64,000 bases of DNA, from assembly GCF_020515625.1 (NCBI RefSeq), contig NZ_JAIWPJ010000001.1, positions 1,302,001 through 1,366,000 of the forward strand, read 5' to 3'. The notes beneath the pieces were generated by a model that was given only the letters and a program-made list of their open reading frames with translations, ran no database searches and was not told where the DNA came from. Shown here one piece after another: positions 24,971 to 26,029 of the stretch. This DNA is from Natrinema amylolyticum (lineage in GTDB: Archaea; Halobacteriota; Halobacteria; Halobacteriales; Natrialbaceae). The first letter of the stretch is position 1, and every line of letters begins with the position of its first letter. The position numbers and the translations under genes are program-made.

Positions 24971-25041
24971 GCGCTGGTAGTGTAGTGGTATCACGTGACC
25001 TTGCCATGGTCACAACCTGGGTTCAAATCCCAGCCAGCGCA
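24971..25041 (+). tRNA. tRNA-Gly (anticodon GCC), copy 1
   Basis: 71 nucleotides folding as a cloverleaf: acceptor GCGCTGG/CCAGCGC with discriminator A, D arm GTG...CAC, anticodon stem TGACC/GGTCA with loop TTGCCAT, T stem CTGGG/CCCAG with loop TTCAAAT. CCA is not encoded. Identical to the copy at 25576. The last 21 bases are repeated three more times in the array that follows. Confidence 0.97.
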
Positions 25042-25202
25042 CTTCTACGGCGAACAACTTCGGCGAGCACCGCGTAGCGTGTGCTCGCCATCCGTGAGCC
25101 GTAACTTCGTACTGGATTTGAACGAGAGAAGACGCAGCCCGCACAGCGAACGGAGTGAGCGAGCAGGACCGTCTTCGCGTTGTTCAAATCCCAGCCAGCG
25201 CA
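25042..25202 (+). repeat. tRNA-linked hairpin unit 1
   Basis: Starts immediately after tRNA copy 1. Hairpin A pairs TACGGC (25046-25051) with GCCGTA (25098-25103), with an inner stem GGCGAGCAC (25062-25070)/GTGCTCGCC (25081-25089). A ten-base linker follows. Hairpin B pairs GGATTTGAAC (25114-25123) with GTTCAAATCC (25182-25191), and inside it GAAGACG (25128-25134) with CGTCTTC (25170-25176). The 3' arm of hairpin B is also the first part of an exact copy (25182-25202) of the tRNA 3' end. Confidence 0.85.
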
Positions 25203-25281
25203 TTTCTCCGAACACAACGTCACGAGCGACGCGATAACTGTATCTCGAGGAATCTTCGACCCCTCGAGCAGTCGCCGTTTC
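25203..25281 (+). repeat. Truncated hairpin A unit
   Basis: TTTCTCCGAACACAACGTCA right after the first tRNA 3' fragment is the 5' arm of the hairpin seen complete at 25779-25833. The closing arm is missing and the sequence loses similarity after about 25228. It looks like a decayed or recombined unit. Confidence 0.6.
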
Positions 25282-25323
25282 GCGCTGACGACCGGGAAAT
25301 GAGCGTCGCGAACAGTCAGCGCA
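25282..25323 (+). repeat. Short acceptor-like hairpin
   Basis: GCGCTGAC (25282-25289) pairs perfectly with GTCAGCGC (25315-25322), followed by A and then CTTCTCCGAGA, which resembles the sequence after the tRNA copies. The 5' arm resembles the tRNA acceptor start (GCGCTGG) with the last bases changed, and the 3' arm carries the matching changes. Confidence 0.55.
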
Positions 25324-25503
25324 CTTCTCCGAGATCAATTCCAACGCACACCGCTCGAGGTGCTTGCCAGCTGTACAGTCTTTCCTCAAGCCGTACCGAT
25401 AATATCGAGTCAGCGGCTGCGGCTCCGCGTCGTCCGTAACCGCGAGCAGCGAATCGATTCGCACGGACGGGATCGAGGCGAGCGTCTCGCTCGAGCTTCG
25501 TCA
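25324..25503. other. Interval between hairpin remnants and second tRNA
   Basis: No gene seen. Contains fragments of hairpin-like sequence (GCGGCTGCGGCTCCGC near 25413-25428, and CGCGAGCAGCG near 25441-25451) resembling the loop sequences of the array, but no complete unit. Confidence 0.4.
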
Positions 25504-25513
25504 TTTATAAATA
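25504..25513 (+). promoter_or_regulatory. TATA-like box upstream of the second tRNA-Gly
   Basis: TTTATAAATA lies about 63-72 bases before the tRNA 5' end, farther than for copy 1, implying a leader of about 35-40 bases. No closer A/T-rich box is present. Confidence 0.4.
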
Positions 25514-25575
25514 GATGTGGTGCTATCGTCCAGTTACACTCGAGACAGAGTGTGACGGCGCAGCACCGATCGAAC

Positions 25576-25646
25576 GCGCTGGTAGTGTAGTGGTATCACG
25601 TGACCTTGCCATGGTCACAACCTGGGTTCAAATCCCAGCCAGCGCA
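25576..25646 (+). tRNA. tRNA-Gly (anticodon GCC), copy 2
   Basis: Identical over all 71 bases to the copy at 24971, with the same cloverleaf and GCC anticodon. The 5' flanks of the two copies differ, so the duplication was confined to the tRNA and the sequence 3' of it, or the genes were homogenised. A second array of hairpin units follows. Confidence 0.97.
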
Positions 25647-25775
25647 TTTCTGTCGCGAACAAATCCGTGAGCGACAGAATCGTTCTGGATTTGAACGAGA
25701 GAAGACGCAGCCCGCACAGTGAACGAAGTGAGCGAGCAGGACCGTCTTCGCGTTGTTCAAATCCCAGCCAGCGCA
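25647..25775 (+). repeat. tRNA-linked hairpin unit 2
   Basis: Hairpin A pairs TTCTGTCGC (25648-25656) with GCGACAGAA (25671-25679), a sequence unrelated to hairpin A of unit 1. The linker TCGTTCT follows. Hairpin B pairs GGATTTGAAC (25687-25696) with GTTCAAATCC (25755-25764) and GAAGACG (25701-25707) with CGTCTTC (25743-25749). It differs from unit 1 inside the loop at a few bases. It ends in an exact tRNA 3' fragment at 25755-25775. Confidence 0.85.
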
Positions 25776-25918
25776 TTTCTCCGAACACAACGTCACGAGC
25801 GTTGCGTAGCAACGCGAGTAATCGTGTTCGGAGGCATCGTTCTAGATTTGAATCAGACCGAGGTTCTGCGAGCGCAGCGAGCAGGTTCTCGGGCGTAGTT
25901 CAAATCCCAGCCAGCGCA
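25776..25918 (+). repeat. tRNA-linked hairpin unit 3
   Basis: Hairpin A pairs CTCCGAACAC (25779-25788) with GTGTTCGGAG (25824-25833), enclosing CGTTGC/GCAACG (25800-25814). After a ten-base linker, hairpin B pairs AGATTTGAAT (25844-25853) with GTTCAAATCC (25898-25907; eight central pairs remain) and CCGAG (25858-25862) with CTCGG (25888-25892), replacing the GAAGACG/CGTCTTC stem of units 1 and 2. It ends in an exact tRNA 3' fragment at 25898-25918. Confidence 0.85.
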
Positions 25919-26029
25919 GTTCTCCGAACACAACATCACGAGCGTTGCATAGCGACGCCGCGAGTCGAAATCGTCTCGAGCCAGAACGCGAACCGTAACT
26001 ACCAATCGACGAACCCGGCTCGCCTCGAG
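25919..26029 (+). repeat. Terminal truncated hairpin A unit
   Basis: GTTCTCCGAACACAACATCA after the last tRNA fragment is again the 5' arm of hairpin A, with no closing arm. Similarity fades by about 25955, and the rest up to the next gene is unremarkable. Confidence 0.55.

Follow-up and report, generated by a model that had tools for sequence, protein, structure and literature searches.

The window analysed here, a stretch of 64,000 nucleotides from the haloarchaeon Natrinema amylolyticum (NZ_JAIWPJ010000001.1, positions 1,302,001 to 1,366,000), carries two identical tRNA-Gly(GCC) genes and three short palindromic units (Table 1). An earlier sequence-only reading had correctly given their coordinates and the 21 bases of the tRNA 3' end that each of them repeats exactly. 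No splicing is needed to complete the first tRNA copy, and the open reading frames examined in the units of the window include no plausible gene. As that reading had noted, hairpin A has three different sequences in the three units, all of them paired; the hairpins B of units 1, 2 and 3 fold with z = -2.41, -4.14 and -2.21 (single-stranded DNA fold against dinucleotide shuffles). Random shuffles do not account for this pairing: 0-5 of 200 dinucleotide shuffles fold as well as the hairpins A and B of the window, and across the class 72% of 291 distinct left halves reach a stem score of 6 or more, versus 3% of shuffles. The 5' arm of hairpin B had been described as the reverse complement of the T-arm, and it is complementary, but imperfectly, with one base missing or one to two bases differing. 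Truncated hairpin A sequence follows the copies that end at 25202 and 25918, hence the arrays of the window have decayed distal ends. Unit 1 recurs in the congeners G005, G307, G092, G321 and G163, and right halves related to that of unit 2 are found behind tRNA-Gly in several congeners.

Table 1. Features of the tRNA-Gly(GCC) locus (positions within the window)
Feature	Position	Strand	Evidence
tRNA-Gly(GCC) gene 1 (donor of the 3'-end repeat)	24971-25041	+	ARAGORN, Rfam RF00005
Unit 1, 161 bp, composed of hairpin A, a linker, hairpin B and a tRNA-end copy	25042-25202	+	
Unit 1 hairpin A, TACGGC...GCCGTA, inner hairpin nested	25046-25103	+	DNA fold z -3.45
Unit 1 hairpin B 5' arm CTGGATTTGAAC, imperfect T-arm reverse complement	25112-25123	+	sequence
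Unit 1 direct copy of tRNA 3' end (T-loop to discriminator)	25182-25202	+	100% match
Decayed remnant distal to unit 1: truncated hairpin A and degenerate copy	25203-25333	+	
Degenerate copy CAGTCAGCGCA inside this remnant	25313-25323	+	
tRNA-Gly(GCC) gene 2, identical to gene 1	25576-25646	+	ARAGORN, Rfam RF00005
Unit 2, 129 bp	25647-25775	+	
Unit 2 hairpin A, short type TTCTGTCGC-GAACAAATCCGTGA-GCGACAGAA	25648-25679	+	DNA fold z -4.37; recurrent loop type
Unit 2 hairpin B 5' arm	25685-25696	+	sequence
Unit 2 direct copy of tRNA 3' end	25755-25775	+	100% match
Unit 3, 143 bp	25776-25918	+	
Unit 3 hairpin A CTCCGAACAC...GTGTTCGGAG	25779-25833	+	DNA fold z -4.93
Unit 3 hairpin B 5' arm CTAGATTTGAAT	25842-25853	+	sequence
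Unit 3 direct copy of tRNA 3' end	25898-25918	+	100% match
Truncated left half (start of hairpin A), distal array end	25919-25958	+	83-92%, repeat family D2

Throughout the class the units follow one plan, in which hairpin A, a linker, an inverted T-loop complement, a variable hairpin core and a direct copy of the tRNA from T-loop to N73 succeed each other. When delimited only by the direct tRNA-end copies they measure 80-200 bp, with a mode of ~110, and the inverted T-loop complement is present in 229 of 233 units so delimited; the core sequence of the unit is GTTCRAATC. The direct repeat extends from tRNA position 53 or 57 to the discriminator N73, with an identity to the own isotype of 0.89-1.00 that is at background level at tRNA position 52 and at flank position +1 (225 pairs), and of the 11 positions that follow the T-loop, 10.37 agree with the own tRNA versus 5.13 with other isotypes. 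The inverted 5' arm fits its own tRNA through the T-loop and only ~3 bases of the T-stem (189 sites). The consensus of hairpin B, derived from a sample that the scan pattern skews to one core type, consists of the arms, three pairs, a bulged G (87%), a G-C pair and purine mismatches, followed by a terminal stem variable in sequence and length. The loop GARCAANNYCGYGA, found repeatedly in short-form hairpin A, the bulged G in hairpin B and the CAGGGAG/CGACCGTGG cores recur class-wide.

The N. amylolyticum genome contains ~25 detectable units behind 16 of its 46 tRNA genes (counted in a scan of these 46 gene loci), tRNA-Tyr having a single partial one. Searched with unit 1, it yielded the same architecture behind tRNA-Lys(CTT) and tRNA-Leu(TAG), in each case with the T-arm and 3' end of the tRNA concerned. 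A search of haloarchaeal genomes, which the sequence-only reading had proposed, was carried out with the hairpin-B pattern GATTYGAAN{20,50}TTCRAATC; it matched 380 of 391 genomes of Halobacteria and 85 of 86 genera, and the pattern read backwards gave 0 matches among the genomes listed. Elsewhere in the phylum, stray matches occur in roughly one of eight genomes, mostly a single match per genome, which is little above the reversed control. Every host named in the scan is a haloarchaeon (Natrinema, Halorubrum, Haloarcula, Haloferax, Natronococcus and others). With a few exceptions, the 30 retrieved class loci are on the sense strand, 33-90 nt behind a tRNA. In the full set of loci, the 300 nt downstream of tRNAs contain 189 oriented sites and the 300 nt upstream contain none; most of the 243 pattern matches without a tRNA are mirror hits, the palindromic pattern also matching the opposite strand. 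For most first units the distance from the tRNA is in the range of 32-80 nt. The association with tRNA-Gly proposed earlier holds for the window and for congeners and was too narrow, as the units stand behind tRNAs of most isotypes across the class. Many tRNAs and orthologues have no unit, and dispersal to intergenic sites away from tRNAs is not the pattern, given that most oriented matches follow a tRNA.

We rejected a viral origin, since matches of the generic pattern in viral contigs look like chance and the specific cores occur in 0, 1 and 0 contigs; phage records gave no match to the units. The one viral-classed contig matched by a core, from IMG/VR (L113:13744-13920), contains a tRNA-Glu followed by a haloarchaeal unit, and represents either host DNA or the edge of a provirus. 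Free plasmid copies were likewise rejected, as the megaplasmid matches sit behind tRNA-Gly (L473) and an apparent degraded tRNA-Glu (L472). In the latter case, a megaplasmid of Natrinema thermotolerans (L472:2840-3090), the tRNA-Glu is degraded and carries an insert in the anticodon arm, yet is followed by a well-formed unit and copy.

In the stems of an RNA transcribed from the sense strand, G-U pairs are expected to far outnumber A-C oppositions. The stems of the units have 34 G-T and 43 A-C mismatches, whereas the tRNA stems of the same loci have 16 and 0 (p=1.4e-5); looser mismatch counts agree, and stems swap as blocks with complementarity kept. Given this lack of preference for G-U over A-C, we conclude that the pairing of the units is maintained at the DNA level. 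The top strand contains tandem G-A motifs and GNA triloops (80 of 223, versus 13 in shuffles), so one DNA strand may still fold. A structured RNA had been one of the two explanations offered by the sequence-only reading; it could be a non-coding RNA co-transcribed with the tRNA as a trailer, decoy or processing signal. Its exclusive sense orientation, the narrow distance range of most first units, the G-A motifs and the triloops would all suit such an RNA, but we consider it very unlikely in view of the mismatch ratio, the high turnover of units, the number of unit-free tRNAs and orthologues, and the Rfam search, in which no unit family was matched and only tRNA reached the cut-off.

The arrays have a clear polarity. 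Of 57 arrays with at least two units, 30 have the more diverged copy at the distal position and 2 at the proximal one (p=2.5e-7), with 1.42 mismatches in distal versus 0.26 in proximal copies, although gene conversion by the tRNA could make proximal copies look younger. In G000, G005, G307, G092 and G321, tRNA-Gly is immediately followed by a unit that in G028 and G107 stands behind another unit and its copy; the two versions align from base 0 to base 0 with scores of 44-54 against a shuffled maximum of 16; by reading, G397 has a similar insertion between the gene and an older unit. The genomes compared at tRNA-Gly are scattered on the ribosomal-locus tree, which makes gain simpler than repeated loss. 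Exact presence and absence is seen between G092, which has a unit, and G034 and G004, which have none at the matching site, and the N. amylolyticum genome has 4 units behind tRNA-Val(TAC) versus 1 in its sister G397, with a homologous flank. Part of these differences could be due to loss rather than gain, and the comparisons are between species and not between strains of one species. Half-units are exchanged as well: among same-isotype pairs, which are not independent, 66 share the left half and differ in the right, and 106 share the right half and differ in the left; in the sisters G394 and G096, for example, unlike left halves precede a right half that both genomes share. Gly and Ser arrays have right halves in common over up to 60 nt (4 differences), and left halves hardly ever cross isotypes. 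The half-units reassort at the T-loop sequence, with breakpoints at repeats of 8-20 nt. All tRNAs have an identical T-loop, so that an exchange at this point spares the tRNA-specific parts, and the arms consequently look custom-made. Proximal gain, precise presence/absence and half-unit exchange bear out the suggestion of a mobile palindromic element tied to a tRNA, and the comparison of relatives that had been proposed shows exact presence and absence of units between congeners. Repeated building of the inverted repeats from the tRNA end by strand switching, as also suggested, may contribute; the majority of modules, however, can be recognised as inherited or exchanged and not as rebuilt.

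Ordinary DNA processes at tRNA genes could in principle build and turn over the units with no dedicated recombinase: template switching at palindromes would keep the arms complementary, and microhomology- or repeat-mediated deletion together with gene conversion in polyploid, mating haloarchaea would shuffle or lose units. The replacement of whole stems as blocks with pairing kept and no wobble bias, the breakpoints at short repeats and the repeat-mediated deletions documented in Haloquadratum (PMC3119063) are all in line with such a scheme. We nevertheless regard it as rather unlikely, since it accounts poorly for direct repeats that end exactly at 53/57 and N73, for decay directed away from the tRNA, and for the class-wide recurrence of the hairpin A loop, the bulged G and the cores, which suggests recognition.

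At tRNA-Ala(CGC), ~17 kb bounded by tRNA 3'-end-like sequence has apparently been inserted between the gene and an old unit array (G000:C1:1453779-1470790; L054, L055, L004); the probable source is an integrative element that entered at a tRNA already followed by an array. Such insertions, which tRNA-end repeats seem to bound, raise the question of whether the units are decayed attachment-site remnants of ordinary tRNA-targeting integrative elements, whose integrases make the same T-loop-to-3'-end direct repeat; haloarchaeal partial tRNAs have been ascribed to integration in earlier accounts (PMC7921747, PMC3119063). Random decay, however, would hardly leave compact segments of 80-200 bp that are near-universal and keep the two-hairpin plan in 229 of 233 cases; by eye, the ends of the tRNA-Ala insertion lack such hairpins, and the units hold no element genes or integrase between their repeats. 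This origin therefore appears distinctly unlikely to us.

The reading that we favour, with a probability of about one half, is that the units are class-wide haloarchaeal non-coding palindromic cassettes addressed to tRNA genes, inserted at the T-loop by a putative tyrosine recombinase acting in trans and lost through repeat-mediated deletion. Recombination within the T-loop, either that of the tRNA or that of the copy closest to it, would let a new unit in; the unit would bring or duplicate the 20-nt 3' end, restoring N57-N73, so that the tRNA stays intact. Older units would be displaced away from the tRNA and then decay, and units or half-units would be lost or fused via deletion between short direct repeats (tRNA-end copies or 5' arms). 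The recombination would most likely be carried out by a tyrosine recombinase of the host or of a mobile element, which possibly acts on an extruded DNA hairpin by analogy to integron attC sites. Tyrosine recombinases (PF00589) are present in 194 of 194 genomes, a ubiquity with no power to single out an enzyme; as nearly all prokaryotes have them, their presence is consistent with the proposal and not a proof of it. Several observations count against the proposal: the units contain no recognised integrase-binding sites, they are absent from phage records, and although the hairpin B arms are inverted sites, there is no inverted right half (0 among 296). A tyrosine recombinase of ~205 aa that comprises the catalytic domain only is encoded in L474-L485 (e.g. 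L478:2317-2934); it recurs in many genera, is well conserved among members of several families of Halobacteria, and shares ~48% identity with PhiCh1 Int2 along 92% of its length. This Int2-like protein has no link to the units and is only a lead as a candidate enzyme.

Other enzymes have less to recommend them. The tRNA 3' ends are known casposon targets, and the direct repeats would fit a target duplication, so that Cas1-type integration with a 20-bp duplication might be envisaged, as might single-strand transposition of the IS200/IS605 type by a Y1 transposase. The two subterminal hairpins indeed resemble the end plan of IS605 and PATE elements (PMC3119063). Both enzymes are too patchy, however, to be required, and were rejected as such: Y1_Tnp occurs in 267 of 391 genomes and was not found in 124, including G028 and G107 with their inferred proximal gain, and Cas1 occurs in 130 and was not found in 261 of 391 nor in the N. 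amylolyticum genome with its ~25 units. A target duplication would also leave the isotype-specific 5' arm of hairpin B unexplained, and we hold either route to be highly improbable.

Among known systems, the anatomy of the units recalls the integron attC site, a folded imperfect palindrome with conserved arms, a bulge and a variable terminal stem, in arrays that grow at one end. The units are likewise imperfect palindromes with a bulge (G in 87%) and a variable stem at the cassette end, and their arrays also appear to grow at one end. Their core is GTTCRAA and not the GTTRRRY of attC, though, and they have no cargo genes and apparently no linked integrase, whereas integron cassettes carry genes; gene cassettes could be discarded as an explanation, the units being, apart from a few longer gaps, too short (80-200 bp) and devoid of cargo. 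A 20-nt isotype-specific repeat is also a feature of the units alone. These differences in core, cargo and repeat are the reason for not filing the units as integrons. It is conceivable, albeit unlikely in our view, that they are integron-like cargo-free cassettes, recombined as folded hairpins at the T-loop by a putative tyrosine recombinase and serving to renew or back up the tRNA 3' end.

In E. coli, the 178-bp repeats of tyrT (RtT RNA) are arranged in tandem behind a tRNA gene and each contains a tRNA 3' end. The units share these traits, but RtT is confined to one enteric locus and has no paired hairpins fitted to each tRNA, and RtT (Rfam RF00391) gave no match in the window up to E=10. 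Like the units, tRNA-targeting integrative elements (reviewed in PMC8371274) have an identity block from T-loop to 3' end and can integrate in tandem at one tRNA; they differ in having genes and an integrase, which the units of ~110 bp lack. REP/BIME, MITE, PATE and SMR elements (for the haloarchaeal ones see PMC3119063) are also short non-coding palindromes that move or exchange, but have not been described as confined to tRNA 3' ends, nor are their arms fitted to each tRNA.

In agreement with the impression of the sequence-only reading that no element of this form had been described, we found no description in the open literature, to which our search was confined. With due caution, we therefore consider the element to be new as a system, of which pieces were earlier seen as "tRNA remnants". 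In the accessible part of the account of Haloferax gibbonsii LR2-5, partial tRNA copies directly beside the full copy are counted as remnants (PMC7921747); these are very likely the same objects as our units, and that part describes them without hairpins, units, arrays or class-wide scope.

An element present in almost every genome of an archaeal class, and located at universally annotated genes, seems never to have been described as a system, and it would explain many of the "partial tRNAs" of haloarchaea. The units are a ready test bed for structure-directed recombination in archaea, and bear on the role of tRNA 3' ends as integration hot spots, as arrays of spare ends may be decoys, landing sites or repair templates. 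If the integron-like interpretation were true, most tRNA genes would be potential cassette platforms, and the cassettes would perhaps shield tRNAs from integrating viruses and plasmids, or receive them.

One unit behind tRNA-Val in G375 (L411) and one behind tRNA-Gly in G387 (L214) carry a second palindromic insert, "...CGTGATGACGAGAGAGC...CTCTCTCGAACCACGA", in the loop of hairpin B. The two units are unrelated, and the insert has the look of a mini-element nested in them. In a tRNA-Leu(TAG) array (L333), one interval contains two successive hairpin-B-like cores, the second with a degenerate copy, and looks as if units had fused.
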